Below are positions 6,540 to 56,907 of a stretch of DNA of 64,000 bases, piece by piece. The translations under genes were made by a program, and so were the position numbers. The notes below the pieces were generated by a model that saw nothing but the letters and a program-made list of their open reading frames with translations, made no database searches and was not told the origin of the DNA. Position 1 is the first letter of the stretch; each line of letters opens with the position of its first letter. The stretch is from Halococcoides cellulosivorans. Its GTDB lineage: Archaea; Halobacteriota; Halobacteria; Halobacteriales; Haloarculaceae. The DNA is taken from assembly GCF_003058365.1 (NCBI RefSeq), contig NZ_CP028858.1:1550001-1614000 (forward strand), in the 5' to 3' direction.

Positions 6540-8489
6540 ATGTCAGAGAAAAATACAGCAGCAGACGGGGGAACAGGAGTGAACGGATCGGTCAATCGAC
6601 GGACGTTCCTGAAGACGTCGGGGGCCGCAGGAGCGATGGCCGTCGGACTCGGGGCCGGGTTCGCGGGGACGGCAGCCGGGGGCCTCGCAGAGTTCAGCGA
6701 GCTCTCTGTGGACGCTCAGAACCGGATCGTTCGAGACGACACCGGCGAGGTGTTCAAGATCCGTGGCCTGAACGTGCCCGACCCGAAGCGGATGGCCATC
6801 ACCGAACAGATGCGTGGCAAGACGATGAAGGGCCTGATCAATATGATCACGGACAACACGAATGGATGGCACCCGCGCGCCATCCGCCTTCCGGCCCAGC
6901 CCACCGACATCGGTGAGCACCCCAACGGGAACACAGGTCCGACCTGGGAGGAGTTCGCACCCGAGGTCATCGAGAACGAGACCAACGAGTTCATGACGAT
7001 GGACCGTCGGCTGATGCGGCCTGCCCAGCCCGACGAGTACCCGAACGGGGCGTTCACCCGCGACCAGCTCGAAACGTATCTCGAAGAGTACTACGACCCC
7101 ATCGTCGAACACTGTAAAGATCGTGGGGTCTACTGTATCGTCGACTTCCACCGCCACTGGCACGAGCAGCCGCCGGGCGACGGTGAGGGATCGGGTCCGA
7201 CCGGGATGGGCCCCGAAGGCGACGCCGAGGCCGAGAACCACCTGCCGTACGACAGCCCGTACACGCTGTACTGGGCGTACAACGAGTACTACGGCGAAGA
7301 CGAACCCGCGTCCTGGGGCTACGTCGACCAGAAGTTCCGGAACAACATGGACGCCGGGTACGTCAGCCAGGAGATGATCGACAGCGGCGACACGCCGTAC
7401 ACCCAGTGGCAGGTCAACCAGGACCTCGTCGACGAGGCCCTGATGTTCTGGGACGTCGTGGCCGAACGGTACGCCGACAAGGAGCACGTCATCTTCGAGC
7501 CGTACAACGAGCCGACTGCGCCCGGTATCTGGGGCCCGGTCGAGGACTACGGCGCGAACAAACTGAAACCGCTGTGGGACGTCTTCGTCGAGGACTTCGC
7601 CACGCCGCTCATCGACAAGATCCGAGAGTACACCACAGACAAGCACATCATGATGGGTGTGCCCGGCTGGTGTCAGGGCACGCAGGGTGTCCACTGGCGG
7701 GAGTTCCCCGACGACAACCTCTCGGTCGTCTGGCACAACTACGCCGGTCACGAGGCCAGCAAGCAAGAGAACTGGCTCAACGACGAGTGTATCGGGCAGG
7801 GCTGTTGGGAGCCCGAGGAGTCCCAGGGCCTGCAGAACGCGATGGACGTCCACCCCGTCTCGGTCACCGAGTTCGGGTGGCAGGACCCCGAATACACGAT
7901 GGACGAGCTGGGTGAGGAAGTCAACATCAGCAAGTGGCTCCAGGGATCCACCGCTGGCAAGGGCTCGACCAAAGAGTACGGGAGGCCCATGATGGAGGCG
8001 ATCGAGACCGACGACCGGATCAGCTGGGTCGCGTGGTGTGCCGACGCGCGCTGGCTGCCGACGATGTTCCGCGCCGACTTCAAACTCCAGGAAGGGAACT
8101 TCGAGCTCACCAACGGGAGCTTCTACGAGACGCCCGAGTCCGAGTTCCCGGTCAACTGTGAGGACATGCCGTGTGACTGGAAGCTCTGGCAGAACCCCAA
8201 CATGGGTCAGCACGTCAAGGACGTCCTCGCAGAGTACAAAGGCGACAACGTGCCCTTCGAGACGACCGAACTGGACGGCGGGACCGGCGGCGGGTCCTTT
8301 GGCGAGGACGCGACCGACCCCGACGGTGACGGTCTCTACGAGGACGTCAACGGGAACGAGCAGATCGACTTCCCCGACGTGAACGCGCTGTTCCAGAACA
8401 CCAGCAACACGGACGACACGAGGTTCGACTTCGACGAGGACGGTGACGTCGACCTCGATGACGTCCTCACGCTGTTCGAGATGGTCTAA
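6540..8489 (+). CDS. Secreted GH5 glycosidase (cellulase-like) with C-terminal dockerin-like domain, copy 1
   Basis: A 649-residue enzyme. Residues 1-45 are a Tat signal (twin Arg 20-21, RRTFLKTSG), so it is exported folded. Residues about 55-540 are a GH5 catalytic domain with the acid/base Glu324 in YNEP and the nucleophile Glu444 in VTEFGW, expected to cleave beta-1,4-glucan or mannan. A linker leads to a 50-residue tail with two EF-hand-like loops (DPDGDGLYEDVNGN and DEDGDVDLDD), like a type I dockerin. It is very close in sequence to the copy at 51646-53556. Upstream AT-rich elements near 6449-6476 suggest a leader of some 35-60 nt. A pyrimidine-rich stretch follows the stop. The exact substrate is inferred. 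Confidence 0.9.
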   Translation: MSEKNTAADGGTGVNGSVNRRTFLKTSGAAGAMAVGLGAGFAGTAAGGLAEFSELSVDAQNRIVRDDTGEVFKIRGLNVPDPKRMAITEQMRGKTMKGLINMITDNTNGWHPRAIRLPAQPTDIGEHPNGNTGPTWEEFAPEVIENETNEFMTMDRRLMRPAQPDEYPNGAFTRDQLETYLEEYYDPIVEHCKDRGVYCIVDFHRHWHEQPPGDGEGSGPTGMGPEGDAEAENHLPYDSPYTLYWAYNEYYGEDEPASWGYVDQKFRNNMDAGYVSQEMIDSGDTPYTQWQVNQDLVDEALMFWDVVAERYADKEHVIFEPYNEPTAPGIWGPVEDYGANKLKPLWDVFVEDFATPLIDKIREYTTDKHIMMGVPGWCQGTQGVHWREFPDDNLSVVWHNYAGHEASKQENWLNDECIGQGCWEPEESQGLQNAMDVHPVSVTEFGWQDPEYTMDELGEEVNISKWLQGSTAGKGSTKEYGRPMMEAIETDDRISWVAWCADARWLPTMFRADFKLQEGNFELTNGSFYETPESEFPVNCEDMPCDWKLWQNPNMGQHVKDVLAEYKGDNVPFETTELDGGTGGGSFGEDATDPDGDGLYEDVNGNEQIDFPDVNALFQNTSNTDDTRFDFDEDGDVDLDDVLTLFEMV

Positions 8490-51645: not shown

Positions 51646-53556
51646 TCAGACCATCTCGAACAGCGCGAGGACGTCTTGCAGGTCAAGGATTTCGTCGTCG
51701 TCGAAGTCGAACTTCTGGGCGTTGTACTGCATCGACGGAGATTCGACGCCCCGGAACAGTTCGTTCACGTCGGGAAAATCCATCTTTCCGTTGCCGTTGA
51801 CGTCCTCGTACAGTCCGTCGCCGTCGGGGTCTGTCGGGCCGAATTCACTCGGGAACGGCACGCGGTCGTCTTCGTGCTCCGCGAGCGTGTCCTTGACGAA
51901 CTGGCCCATGTTCGGGGCTTCCCAGAGTGTCCAGGAACAGGGTAACTCCTCGCAGTTGACCGGATACTCCTCTCTGGGCGTGTCGTACCAGCTCCCGTCG
52001 GTGAGTTCGAAGTCCCCCTCGTTGATCGTGAAATCTCTCCGGAACATCGTGGGAAGCCAGCGAACGTCGGCCCCCCACGCGACCCATGAGATGCGGTCGT
52101 CGGACTCCATCGCCTCGACGAACGGTCGGCCGTAGCTCTCGACGGTGCCTTCGAGCCAGTAGCTGAGATCGACATCGAACATGCCGAGTTCGTCTTCGGT
52201 GTACTCCTCGTTTTGCCAGCCGAACTCGGTGACGGCAACCGGATGGACGTCCATCGCTTCTTGCAGGCCCTGGGTCTCGTGGTCCTCCCAACAGCCTTTG
52301 CCGATGCACTTCTCGTTGAGCCAGTTTTGCTCCTTGCTGACTCCGTGGCCCGGGTGGTTGTGATAGGTGATCGAGACGTTGTCGTCGGGGAACGCCTGCC
52401 AGTGGACGCCCTGCGCGCCCTGACACCACCCGGGTGTCCCCATCATGATGTGCGTGTCGGGGGCGTGCTCGCGAATCGTGTCGATCAGCGGCGTGACGAA
52501 GTCGTCGACGAACGTCTTCCAGAGCGGGACCACCTTGTACGCGCCGTACTCCTCGACCGGGCCCAAGATGCCGGGCGCAGCCGGTTCGTTGTACGGTTCG
52601 AAGATGACGTGGTCCATCTCTCCGTACCGATCTGCGACGACGTGCCAGAACATGAGCGCCTCGTCGCGAAGCGCCTCGTTGACCTGCCACTGGGTGTACG
52701 GCGTGTCGCCGCTCTCGACCATCCGTTCGCTGACGTACCCATCGTCCATGTTGTTCCGGAACCTCTGGTCGACGGCGAGCCAGGACGCCGGATGGTCTGT
52801 GCCGTAGAACGCGTTGTACGCCCAGTAGTTGGTGTACTCACTGTCGTACGCGAGGTGATTCTCGGCCTCGGCGTCGCCCTCAGGTCCCATCCCGGTCGGG
52901 CCACTCCCCCGACCGTCGCCTGGCGGCTGTTCGTGCCAGTGGCGATGGAAATCCACGATGCAGTAGACGCCCCGCTCTCGACAGTGTTCGACGGCGGGGT
53001 CCAGGTATTCGTCGAGATACGTGTCGAGTTGCTCCTCGGTGAACGCCGGCGGTTGCGGTGGCCGCTGGAGCCGCCGGTCCTCGTACATGAACTCGTTGGA
53101 CTCGTCCTCGACGACCTCCGGGGCGAACTCGCCCCAGGTCGGGCCCGTGTTCCCGTTGGGGTGCTCACCGATGTCGATCGGTTGGACCGGAATCCGAATG
53201 ACTCTGGGGTGCCACCCGTTCCCGTTGCTGGTGACGAGCGAGACCATCTGCTCGAAGGTCTTTCCCCGCAGGTGTTCGGTGATCGCGACGCGCTTCGGAT
53301 CCGGGACGGTCAGACCACGGATCTTGAACACCTCGCCGGTGTCCCGGCGCACGATCCGATTGTCCGCGTCGACGTCGAGTGGGGCGAACGATTCGATCCC
53401 TGGCTCTGCAAAGGAGAGTGCCGACGCAGGCCCCGTGAGCCCCCCGCCGACCGCCAGCGCTCCCGTCACGGCCCCGCTCTGTAGAAATCGCCGCCGTGAG
53501 ACCCCTGCTGTTTTTGCTCGGTGCCGGTCGCCGTCGTCTGTGTGTCCCGTCGTCAT
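51646..53556 (-). CDS. Secreted GH5 glycosidase with dockerin-like domain, copy 2
   Basis: 636 residues and the closest relative of copy 1 at 6540-8489. The Tat signal has RRRFLQSG at 21-28. The GH5 domain spans about 55-540 with acid/base Glu324 (YNEP) and nucleophile Glu444 (VTEFGW), at the same residue numbers as copy 1. The C-terminal 65 residues contain DPDGDGLYEDVNGNGKMDF and FDFDDDEILDLQDVLALFEMV. It is last of three tandem GH5 genes on the minus strand. An AT-rich element around 53610-53640 suggests an own promoter and a leader of about 50 nt. Confidence 0.92.
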   Translation of the reverse strand: MTTGHTDDGDRHRAKTAGVSRRRFLQSGAVTGALAVGGGLTGPASALSFAEPGIESFAPLDVDADNRIVRRDTGEVFKIRGLTVPDPKRVAITEHLRGKTFEQMVSLVTSNGNGWHPRVIRIPVQPIDIGEHPNGNTGPTWGEFAPEVVEDESNEFMYEDRRLQRPPQPPAFTEEQLDTYLDEYLDPAVEHCRERGVYCIVDFHRHWHEQPPGDGRGSGPTGMGPEGDAEAENHLAYDSEYTNYWAYNAFYGTDHPASWLAVDQRFRNNMDDGYVSERMVESGDTPYTQWQVNEALRDEALMFWHVVADRYGEMDHVIFEPYNEPAAPGILGPVEEYGAYKVVPLWKTFVDDFVTPLIDTIREHAPDTHIMMGTPGWCQGAQGVHWQAFPDDNVSITYHNHPGHGVSKEQNWLNEKCIGKGCWEDHETQGLQEAMDVHPVAVTEFGWQNEEYTEDELGMFDVDLSYWLEGTVESYGRPFVEAMESDDRISWVAWGADVRWLPTMFRRDFTINEGDFELTDGSWYDTPREEYPVNCEELPCSWTLWEAPNMGQFVKDTLAEHEDDRVPFPSEFGPTDPDGDGLYEDVNGNGKMDFPDVNELFRGVESPSMQYNAQKFDFDDDEILDLQDVLALFEMV

Positions 53557-53746
53557 GATGATCCCCTGGAGCGGAGCCCCCGACCACCACCGGTCGTGGA
53601 CGTTATCTCAATATTCAAACTGAAAACAAATAATATTTTGGGATCGCTTCGTCGTGACCAACTCGCTCGGGCCAGTGTCGTCATCGGGGAACCCCCCCCC
53701 CTCCCCGACACCCACAGTTGTCGGCGTGGTGTGTCCTCCGTCGCGG
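53557..53746. other. Intergenic region between GH5 copies 2 and 3
   Basis: About 190 bp. It holds the AT-rich promoter region of copy 2 (near 53605-53640) and a 9-C run (53693-53701). No gene. Confidence 0.6.
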
Positions 53747-55348
53747 TCAGACCATCTCGAACAGCGCGAGGACGTCCTGGGCGGTGAATTCTCCGTCGTC
53801 GCTGAAGTCGAACATCTCGATGGTCTCCGGGAGGGGCGCCGACCCCGTCTTCTGGTACAGCGTGTTCACGTCGGGGAAGTTCAACTCGCCGTCACCGTTG
53901 ACGTCCTCGTAGAGACCGTCGCCGTCGGGGTCGGTCGCGTCGTCGAACCAGTTGTCGGTGCCGTCGTCGGTGGTGGTCGGGGTCGTACTCGGCAGTCCGT
54001 CGCCGCCGGGCACCAGGTCGTCTTTCCGATCGGCCAGCGCCTGCTTGATGAACGCACCCATGTTCTCGCCGGTCATCAGGTCCCACGAGCACGGCCGATC
54101 CTCACACAGCACCGGGATGTCGTCCTCGTAGGGGTGGCCAACCGAGTCACCGAACCCGTCGCCGCCGGCCCAATCGCCCAGCGTGAACATCTTCGGCAGC
54201 CAGATCGGATCGGCACACCACGCCGTCCAGTTGATCGCGGGACTCGACTCCAGGAACTCCATGAACGGTTCACCGAAGTCCGAGGTGGACCCACGAAGGT
54301 AATTCGAGACGATCGTATTGTCCCAGCCGAACTCGGTGACAAAGAGCGGGAACTCCTCGTAGACCGATGTTTCGTCGCCGTCAGGTCCCGCAGCGACGCC
54401 CTGGGCATTGGTCGCCTCGGCGTCCCAGTTCTCGTTCATACTGGGGTTGTGGCCGGGATAGATGTGGTAGGCGTAGGAGAGGTTCCCACCGTCGAACGGA
54501 TCGTACAGCGCACCCTCGGGACTGGTCGACCAGCCAGGGTTCCCGACGATGATGTGGTTGTCGGCCGTCTTGCGGATCTCATCGACCCACGGCTGAGCCA
54601 TCGCCTGCCAGGTGTCCCAGACGTATTTGACCCAGTCGCGTTCGAGGACGTCCGCCCACATCCCGGGTTCGGTCGGTTCGTTGTAGATTTCGTAGATGAC
54701 GTGCGAGCGGTCGGCATACCGTGGCCCGACGGTCTCCCAGAACATCATGACCTCCTCGTGAAGGTCCTGGTTGATCATCTCTTTCGGATCGTCCTGGGCG
54801 GTCGGCACGCCCGAGGCCCACTTCAGGGGCTTCCAGTGGCGGTGCATGTCGACGATGGCGTAGACGCCCGCCGCCTCCAACTGGTCGATCACCGGATCGA
54901 GATGCGTCTCCAGAAAGTCGTCGAGTTGGGACTGCGTGTACGCCGGCGGTTCGGGCGCGCCGTCGATGTGCCCCGGCGTGTTCTCACCGATGTCGACCGG
55001 TTGGCAGGGCACCCGGACGACGCGTGGGTGCCAGCCCTCCTCGTTGTTCGTCACCAGATCGACGACCTGCGAGGCGTCTTTCCCCCGGGCCGGCGCGGTG
55101 ACGTTGAGGCGTTTGGGATCTGCGATGTTCAGCCCACGCAGTTTGACCGTCGAGTCGTTCGGATCGACGAGTGTGTTGCCCTGCACGTCGAGCCACGGCG
55201 TCGGGATCCCCTGCGCGCTCACGGACCCGAACGCCCCGGCCGAGATCCCACTCGCGAGCACGGCCCCGCCCGCTGCTGTCTTCAGAAACGTCCGACGCGA
55301 CGTCGATGCCGATTCGCCCGTCCCCTGTGTGTTGTGTGTCTCTGTCAT
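53747..55348 (-). CDS. Secreted GH5 glycosidase with dockerin-like domain, copy 3
   Basis: 533 residues. The Tat signal carries SRRTFLKTAAGG (18-29). The GH5 domain covers about 48-440 with Glu224 (YNEP) and Glu339 (VTEFGW) as catalytic pair; it is shorter than copies 1 and 2 and lacks their inserts. A Thr-rich linker (STTPTTTDDG) leads to the C-terminal dockerin-like pair (DPDGDGLYEDVNGDGELNF, then FDFSDDGEFTAQDVLALFEMV). A CTTTAAAT element lies about 75 nt upstream. The substrate is inferred to be cellulose or a similar beta-glucan. Confidence 0.92.
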   Translation of the reverse strand: MTETHNTQGTGESASTSRRTFLKTAAGGAVLASGISAGAFGSVSAQGIPTPWLDVQGNTLVDPNDSTVKLRGLNIADPKRLNVTAPARGKDASQVVDLVTNNEEGWHPRVVRVPCQPVDIGENTPGHIDGAPEPPAYTQSQLDDFLETHLDPVIDQLEAAGVYAIVDMHRHWKPLKWASGVPTAQDDPKEMINQDLHEEVMMFWETVGPRYADRSHVIYEIYNEPTEPGMWADVLERDWVKYVWDTWQAMAQPWVDEIRKTADNHIIVGNPGWSTSPEGALYDPFDGGNLSYAYHIYPGHNPSMNENWDAEATNAQGVAAGPDGDETSVYEEFPLFVTEFGWDNTIVSNYLRGSTSDFGEPFMEFLESSPAINWTAWCADPIWLPKMFTLGDWAGGDGFGDSVGHPYEDDIPVLCEDRPCSWDLMTGENMGAFIKQALADRKDDLVPGGDGLPSTTPTTTDDGTDNWFDDATDPDGDGLYEDVNGDGELNFPDVNTLYQKTGSAPLPETIEMFDFSDDGEFTAQDVLALFEMV

Positions 55349-55479
55349 GGTGAAGTCCGGACTCTCGCCGCTCGCCCCGACGAACGGCCGAGTCGCTCAC
55401 AATTTTCACGTACAATCTGAATAGATTTAAAGATTGTGTCGAAAACGGCGATCCCGCGTTCTGGGCCTGTACCGGCCGA

Positions 55480-56907
55480 TCAGACCGCCTCGAACAGTGC
55501 GAGAACGTCCTGCATATCGACGGTGCCGTCACCAGTGAAATCGTACGCCCCGACGTGGTCCTGGACTGCCGAGGCGTCGGTGTGCTGGAAGAACCGATTC
55601 ACGTCCGGGAAGTCGAGGTCGCCGTTCCCGTTGAAGTCCTCGTGGAGGCCATCGCCGTCGCGGTCGGCCGGGACAGTGCCCTCGATCGGATCGAGGTCGG
55701 TCCCGCCCGGGACGTTCGTGTCTTTGAGTTCTTTGAGGAGGTCACGGAAGAACACGCCCTGGTAGTCTTCGCCACCCTGGATCGTCCACTCGTGGGTCGC
55801 GTCGTCGAACTCGAACATCGGTGGCGCCCAGGAGTGATCGAAACACCAGGCCTGCCAGTGGATGTGGTCGTGGTCGGCGAAAAACTGCTCGAACTCCGCG
55901 CCGGCGGTCGACGTGGTGCCTTTCAGGAACGGCGGGACGGGTGCGCCGTCGTGGCGCTCGTTCTGGTAGCCGAACTCCGACATGAAGACGGGCACCTCCG
56001 CGGCCGGTTCGCCGAAGTACTTCGAGAGCGGGCGCAGGCCCTCGTGAGTGTAGACGTGACCCACGTAGGCGAGATTGTCACCCGAAAACTCGTTGTTCGG
56101 GGCCCACCAGGTCCACTGGCTCCACCGCGGCGATCCGATCAGGACGATGTTGTCGCTGGCGGCGTCGCGAATCGTGTCGACCCACGGCTGAGCGGTCTCG
56201 CGCCAGTTCAGCCAGGTGTCTTCGGCGTCGTCGTGGAGCAGGCCCCGGTCGTCGTTCTGGCCGTCGCCGACGTAGGGCCCGATCGGTTCGTTGTACACCT
56301 CGTAGAGCACGTGGCTCTGGTCGGCATAGCGTGGCGCGACGGTCTCCCAGAACAGCGTGAGTTCGTCGTGGAGTTCGGGGCGCGTGTAATCGTCGGTCTT
56401 GTGGCGGTGATAGTCCAGAATGCAGTAGACGCCACGCTCGGCGCATTTCTCGACGACCGGGTCGAGCAGGTCCGCACAGTACGTCTCCAGTTCCGATCGC
56501 GTGAACGCGACGGAGTCCGGTTCTTCGTCGTTCGACCCCGTGACGCCACCGGGCTGGATCGGCACCCGGATGACGCGAGCGTACCAGTCCCGTTCGGGAT
56601 CGGTGGCGTGGTCGATGGTCTCCGGGACGGGGCGTCGCCAGTGGTTCTGATTCGCTCGCCCGGGCGCGACGACGTTCACGCCCCGCAGCGTGACGCGCTC
56701 GCCCGTGTCGTCGACCAGCAGGTTCCCCTCGCGCTGGAGCCACGGCGTCGGGATGCCAGTCGCGGCCGCGCCGACCTCGGTCGCGCCGACTGCCAGCCCC
56801 GTCCCCAGCGTCCCCGCGCCCGCGAGGCGGAGAAAGTTCCGCCGCGTCCGTCCCCGTCGCGTCCGTCGATACCCGTCCGTCCGGTGTCCGGTGTCTTCCC
56901 CCGTCAT
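55480..56907 (-). CDS. Secreted GH5 glycosidase with dockerin-like domain, copy 4
   Basis: 475 residues. The N-terminus is Arg-rich with a Tat motif (TRRNFLRLAGAG, 21-32). The GH5 domain covers about 50-405, catalytic Glu207 (YNEP) and Glu311 (MSEFGY). The C-terminal tail repeats the pattern: DRDGDGLHEDFNGNGDLDF and YDFTGDGTVDMQDVLALFEAV. The promoter (TTTTAAGG, about 56936-56943) lies 30 nt upstream, so the mRNA may be leaderless, unlike the other copies. It is first of the three tandem GH5 genes. Which beta-glucan it prefers is unknown. Confidence 0.92.
   Translation of the reverse strand: MTGEDTGHRTDGYRRTRRGRTRRNFLRLAGAGTLGTGLAVGATEVGAAATGIPTPWLQREGNLLVDDTGERVTLRGVNVVAPGRANQNHWRRPVPETIDHATDPERDWYARVIRVPIQPGGVTGSNDEEPDSVAFTRSELETYCADLLDPVVEKCAERGVYCILDYHRHKTDDYTRPELHDELTLFWETVAPRYADQSHVLYEVYNEPIGPYVGDGQNDDRGLLHDDAEDTWLNWRETAQPWVDTIRDAASDNIVLIGSPRWSQWTWWAPNNEFSGDNLAYVGHVYTHEGLRPLSKYFGEPAAEVPVFMSEFGYQNERHDGAPVPPFLKGTTSTAGAEFEQFFADHDHIHWQAWCFDHSWAPPMFEFDDATHEWTIQGGEDYQGVFFRDLLKELKDTNVPGGTDLDPIEGTVPADRDGDGLHEDFNGNGDLDFPDVNRFFQHTDASAVQDHVGAYDFTGDGTVDMQDVLALFEAV

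Follow-up and report, generated by a model that had tools for sequence, protein, structure and literature searches.

Dockerin-like tails on Tat-exported glycoside hydrolases of Halococcoides cellulosivorans point to a putative cellulosome-like docking system at the haloarchaeal cell surface

What does a dockerin-like tail bind when it is found on the exported glycoside hydrolases of an archaeon? The question is raised by four genes (A to D, Table 1) in a 64,000-base stretch of the Halococcoides cellulosivorans genome, bases 1,550,001–1,614,000 of its single 2,723,120-base contig, referred to below as the window. The literature describes cellulosomes as machines of bacteria (and of fungi). An earlier reading of the letters alone (the sequence-only reading) had proposed that the four tails share a binding partner or dock at the cell surface, possibly as part of an archaeal counterpart of a cellulosome. 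We computed a tail inventory, predicted dockerin- and cohesin-type folds, domain architectures, co-occurrence and gene neighbourhoods. Judged from sequence profiles and structure models, it is probable (roughly 0.8) that the tail is a dockerin by which enzymes exported through the twin-arginine translocation (Tat) pathway dock on a cohesin-like domain, here called C, and that a cellulosome-like complex would thereby form at the cell surface. Strain HArcel1 of this species is a cellulose specialist with a genome of 2,723,120 bp on one scaffold (PMC10267330).

Translations, Pfam matches and twin-arginine (RR) motifs agree that the window holds four Tat-exported glycoside hydrolase family 5 (GH5) genes, three in tandem and one distant, with a common C-terminal tail. 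All four proteins match GH5 (PF00150, E 1e-19 to 3e-30) and carry RR motifs (SRRRFLQ, SRRTFLK, TRRNFLR, NRRTFLK). Their alignment conserves the NEP and EFG motifs, in which the usual GH5 catalytic glutamates sit. As had been stated, the proteins are otherwise diverged (39–68% identity over the full length). The tails comprise 58–62 residues with 25 invariant columns and 53–66% identity to the gene A tail. Each begins with a DPDGDGLYED loop; behind it come two EF-type loops of 12 residues, which start 32 residues apart, have invariant aspartates and are each followed by a short helix. The two calcium-loop motifs previously read in each tail are thus present, but the N-terminal DPDGDGLYED is a third loop of the DxDxDG type. 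Similarly, the closing DVLALFEMV assigned to all four tails applies in part: A, B and D end in LFEMV, but C ends in LFEAV and D reads DVLTLFEMV.

The tail has the layout of type I dockerins (PF00404), with two 12-residue EF-type loops and their F-helices in about 60 residues. The curated Dockerin_1 cut-off is exceeded by one of the four window tails, and 53 of the 67 C-terminally tailed proteins of the genome match the family at E≤0.01. Modelled by AlphaFold2 from 42 natural tails, the gene B tail folds into three helices, with a predicted local distance difference test (pLDDT) score of 93.3. Among the PDB matches of the model, ranks 1–25 are taken up entirely by dockerins or chains that contain one, and calmodulin appears only lower; these matches are weak in E-value (best 0.09) because the domain is short. 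Together with the surface-docking explanation of which it forms part, the assignment of the tail as a dockerin is predicted with the same probability as given above. At positions 10–12 of the loops the consensus is uniform within each genome and different between genomes (FPD / xQD, FND / FND and [TS]HxD / FxD), as expected for lineage-specific recognition.

The search for further tailed proteins that had been suggested was fruitful. A profile built from the four window tails found 70 tails in the Halococcoides genome at E<1e-12, all on secreted-type proteins, a number far beyond chance. The tail stands at the C-terminus in 67 cases; in the other three it lies directly behind the signal peptide, ahead of a long protein. 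These three N-terminal tails indicate a domain that can take different places in a protein. They rule out a signal for processing or sorting at the C-terminus, and the refuting option named beforehand, that of a sorting module only, is disfavoured. They also speak against a wider alternative, in which the tail depends on calcium and serves the stability, folding or sorting of proteins in brine without any protein partner. The predominantly C-terminal position and the acidic calcium loops, which suit high salt, agree with that alternative, but it does not account for residues at dockerin-contact positions that are kept within genomes and varied between them, nor for the co-occurrence and adjacency of the tail with a cohesin-fold domain described below. 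We regard it as very improbable.

Docking by the tail would suit proteins that are exported without another means of attachment. An RR motif is present in 60 of the 67 C-terminally tailed proteins, and hints of another anchor among them are limited to a single possible lipobox and a single marginal hydrophobic stretch. Their Pfam cargo includes GH5 (22 proteins), GH10 (5), GH9 (3) and GH43 (2), besides ricin-type lectins, carbohydrate-binding modules (CBM3/6/35), fn3 and PKD domains, and 20 of the 22 GH5 genes of the genome are tailed. Many plant-polysaccharide enzymes thus bear the tail, as enzymes of a cellulosome bear dockerins. One tailed protein of another kind (L069 601-4563, G000:C1:2078483-) is a 1,321-residue Sec-type protein that resembles a haloarchaeal S-layer-like surface glycoprotein by eye; it ends in the tail and has no membrane anchor.

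The window contains no cohesin, as had been noted, but cohesins are present elsewhere in the genome. Pfam Cohesin exceeds its cut-off in two adjacent genes, C502 (beta-helix, cohesin and classical dockerin) and C208 (signal peptide, cohesin and transmembrane helix). Since both exceed the cut-off and C208 is membrane-anchored, they could be the receptors of the tails in place of C. However, a classical dockerin (47.8 bits) is already part of the pair, and the match of the tail profile to it is marginal (E 0.4); the pair lies 33 kb from any tail gene, and classical Pfam cohesins hardly track the tail across 341 Halobacteria genomes (odds ratio 1.9). On co-occurrence and distance we rejected them as receptor, and docking on classical cohesins seems highly unlikely, if marginally less so than a tail without partner.

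Weak partial Pfam Cohesin matches pointed instead to a locus at 2.06 Mb. It encodes a 669-residue Tat protein (S669) with three copies of a domain of about 135 residues, the C domain, and adjoining it S905, a membrane-anchored protein of 905 residues that combines one C with five copies of another repeat, R. Both genes have tailed genes within about 6 kb, and the C-terminus of S669 resembles half a dockerin by eye. A further membrane-anchored protein of 1,665 residues (S1665, two C and eight R) is encoded beside a five-gene tail cluster. The remaining C carriers of Halococcoides are one protein with C and PGF-CTERM and tailed proteins with 3, 2, 1 and 1 C domains. An AlphaFold2 model of a natural chain with C and tail has a pLDDT of 91.6, and the C domain in the model adopts the beta-sandwich fold of cohesins: every one of the top 15 Foldseek matches in the PDB is a cohesin or a scaffoldin, with E-values down to 3e-8, and against the C. 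thermocellum CipA cohesin 1aoh the template modelling score is 0.76, with a root-mean-square deviation of 3.1 and 13% identity. One haloarchaeal bridging protein exceeds the Pfam Cohesin cut-off (30.4 bits against 24.1) and also matches the C profile strongly. C is thus, by its predicted structure, a cohesin-fold relative and not a PF00963 member by sequence. The genome search for cohesins that had been called for therefore yielded cohesin-fold domains on multi-copy scaffolds and on membrane anchors.

If C counts as a cohesin, multi-cohesin scaffoldins occur in Halococcoides itself (S669 and a tailed protein with three C) and in relatives (3, 5, at least 5 and at least 7 C), and surface-anchored cohesins are represented by the protein with C and PGF-CTERM and by the repeat proteins with a C-terminal transmembrane helix. 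Six haloarchaeal genomes, from cellulolytic organisms or rich in cellulases, have a scaffold gene with three to seven C domains within a cluster of tailed cellulases. The scaffold of Natronobiforma cellulositropha (G103, 47 tails) combines GH5 with at least five C and is broken by the contig end; a sequence with C, CBM5/12 and PKD that opens another contig was read as its continuation, and a protein with C and a transmembrane helix is encoded nearby. Two genomes, G321 (19 tails) and G061 (13 tails), encode a Tat protein with three C, fn3, a CBM5/12-like module and PKD; the CBM5/12 match falls slightly short of the cut-off in these two and exceeds it in G103. G264 (17 tails) has a Tat protein with five C and a tail, adjoining a protein with C and a transmembrane helix. 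Natronoglomus mannanivorans and Halovivax sp. KZCA124 contain open reading frames with GH5 and at least seven C that run past the analysed flank; that of Natronoglomus may be the 1,755-residue ‘GH5/CBM6’ protein of PMC10963439.

A separate kind of locus was seen in genomes that have only one tail of the studied kind. In L219 (G042:C1:468500-488400) a 1,258-residue protein with eight classical Pfam cohesins adjoins several Dockerin_1 subtilases, two of which also have cohesins, and G207:C1:81770-110285 is of the same type. This looks like a scaffolded protease complex that would use the classical cohesin class.

Among the 341 Halobacteria genomes, the tail was found in 149, C in 133 and both in 128 (odds ratio 228, p 8e-64). 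Genus-level counts, compiled by hand from the same searches, were 44 with both, 5 with the tail only, 1 with C only and 31 with neither. Outside Halobacteria (about 240 genomes, an estimate), both occurred in 34 genomes, of 42 with the tail and 52 with C. The independent part of this association is a widespread two-gene cassette, in which an exported protein with C and tail is followed by a separate protein made of a signal peptide, one C, a linker and a C-terminal transmembrane helix; reading of 39 loci found it in 30, and of 20 loci chosen for the first gene only, 14 have it. At L093, the single locus for which the first protein was tested, it proved PhoX-like (PF05787, E 8e-18), which suggests surface docking of a phosphatase. 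The arrangement of a protein with C and tail beside a membrane-anchored C protein was seen at L093 1192-3876 and at many haloarchaeal loci (L094–L132). Anchored C domains have Tyr or Phe directly behind GL[SA]G in 29 of 29, at a position that we take to be the start of the strand contacting the dockerin in known cohesins; in enzyme-borne C this residue is usually Gly or Ala and aromatic in 5 of 38, which would fit a loss of receptor function in the latter.

The same observations bear on a third alternative, direct binding of polysaccharide or S-layer glycan by the tail. Substrate-binding or CBM-like roles have been proposed for haloarchaeal dockerin-type modules (PMC13260240; PMC10963439). The tail is, however, also found on PhoX phosphatase-like and many non-glycoside proteins, and its dockerin-type fold and the co-occurring cohesin-fold partner are at odds with glycan binding, to which we give as little credence as to a module without partner.

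The R repeats were considered as receptor as well. They comprise 13 copies across S905 and S1665, of about 109 residues with conserved W-x-W and IP-x-x-W (Table 1). Tandem R arrays were found in no other searched haloarchaeon, and given this restriction to one genome and an odds ratio of 3.2 with the tail the candidate was rejected.

Two side observations concern the range of tail and C beyond Halobacteria. G506, a non-haloarchaeal genome of the same phylum (family f21), contains at least 21 tails (57 candidates) and six C domains, possibly an expanded docking system. Bacterial metagenome-assembled genomes of Bipolaricaulota/Acetothermia type (L185, L199, L201, L178, L196) encode C-tail-C-tail or CC-tail proteins, hinting at transfer or at a wider range of this module class.

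Docking of the tails on C domains would operate as follows. Tat would export folded enzymes, which have no other anchor, into the surface zone, where their calcium-loaded tails would be captured by the divergent cohesin-fold C domains, either one to one on membrane-anchored C proteins or several together on scaffolds of the S669 type. Proteins with both C and tail could act as adaptors that link scaffolds. In Halococcoides the outcome would be a complex of several enzymes that is bound to the surface and degrades cellulose, effectively the cellulosome of an aerobic haloarchaeon. We infer the binding of C to the tail, its calcium dependence, the stoichiometry and the assembled complex from the gene-based evidence. 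The idea of a common partner, of surface docking and of an archaeal cellulosome is supported in silico by the 70 tails, the cohesin-fold scaffolds and anchors, their co-occurrence and the multi-C genes in the cellulase clusters of relatives. The physiology of the HArcel strains fits a surface-bound enzyme complex as well, as they attach firmly to cellulose, act on its insoluble form only through cell-associated activity and release little sugar (PMC4569967).

Several points weigh against this interpretation. PF00963 matches the C domains at E<1 in only 4 of 25 (best 0.005), alignment of C with two classical cohesins by hhalign was too shallow to decide, and a sequence search of C against the PDB matched no cohesin; the cohesin assignment is therefore carried by the fold comparison. 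Halococcoides has about 15 C domains for 70 tails, and no CBM was recognised in its protein with three C. The co-occurrence is inflated, since C and tail are often in one protein, and 21 of the 149 tail genomes have no detected C. Lastly, endoglucanase activity on soluble carboxymethyl cellulose was also found in supernatants (PMC4569967), so not all enzyme is held at the cell.

With less confidence, we lean towards a broader view for Archaea. A second, sequence-divergent class of cohesin and dockerin may generally hold Tat-exported enzymes at the surface, with a tailed enzyme (often a PhoX-like phosphatase) and an anchored C as the unit, which would have expanded to true cellulosomes with multi-C scaffoldins in haloarchaeal cellulose specialists, in parallel to bacteria.

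Table 1. Positions of the four window genes and their tails (numbered from the first base of the window) and of the R repeats (contig numbering).
Feature	Position	Strand	Description
Gene A	51646..53556	-	636 residues, Tat-exported GH5 enzyme, C-terminal dockerin-like tail
Gene A tail	51649..51834	-	62 residues, end DVLALFEMV; tail profile E 3.4e-35
Gene B	53747..55348	-	533 residues, Tat-exported GH5 enzyme, tailed
Gene B tail	53750..53935	-	Pfam Dockerin_1 26.4 bits against a cut-off of 22.9; AlphaFold model pLDDT 93.3
Gene C	55480..56907	-	475 residues, Tat-exported GH5 enzyme, tailed
Gene C tail	55483..55668	-	End DVLALFEAV
Gene D	6540..8489	+	649 residues, Tat-exported GH5 enzyme, tailed; 68% identity to gene A
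Gene D tail	8313..8486	+	58 residues, end DVLTLFEMV
R repeats	G000:C1:2256351-2260814 and 2061516-2063765		Two membrane-anchored proteins

Just beyond the left end of the window lies a further tailed GH5 paralogue (G000:C1:1542253-1545109), whose signal peptide region is almost identical to that of gene A.

If true, the docking system would bring enzyme scaffolding to archaea, aerobic life and saturated brine. Such a system would also explain why insoluble cellulose is hydrolysed by these strains only with the cells attached, and it would offer salt-proof binding pairs for engineering. Since the C domain is largely invisible to Pfam, the docking system has probably gone unnoticed in many archaeal genomes. 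In a survey of 2010, none of the archaeal genomes yielded cellulosome components (PMC2838879), and the study of HArcel1 cellulose metabolism mentions cellulosomes in its introduction only, and neither dockerin nor cohesin (PMC10267330). In the open-access literature, haloarchaeal dockerins are called substrate-binding, and archaeal cellulosome components or multi-cohesin scaffoldins are reported as absent; priority is not certain.

The predicted system shares with the bacterial cellulosome of the Clostridium thermocellum, Acetivibrio and Ruminococcus type the many enzymes with a C-terminal dockerin, the multi-cohesin scaffoldins, some with a putative CBM, the membrane- or surface-anchored cohesins, the adaptors with both modules and the gene clusters of scaffoldin and enzymes. 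It differs in being archaeal, aerobic and extremely halophilic, in a cargo that is Tat-exported and folded, in anchors that are transmembrane or PGF-CTERM helices and not S-layer homology domains or sortase, and in a cohesin and dockerin of a divergent class; the complex itself is a prediction. The ‘dockerin type I / PKD’ annotations of Natronoglomus mannanivorans (PMC10963439) concern the same GH5-rich clusters, with one protein annotated dockerin/PKD. In that work, however, the dockerin is a putative CBM-like module, no cohesin, scaffoldin or cellulosome is mentioned, and the GH5 protein with at least seven C (L139) was not recognised as a scaffold. Recognition between archaeal cohesin and dockerin, predicted here, also has a precedent in Archaeoglobus fulgidus and other non-cellulosomal archaeal pairs. 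PMC9012536 describes such recognition as experimentally verified and says, citing Peer 2009, that multi-cohesin scaffoldins are lacking in archaea with cohesin or dockerin. Unlike such pairs, the haloarchaea described here have tandem C scaffolds of three to seven copies and dozens of tailed glycoside hydrolases.

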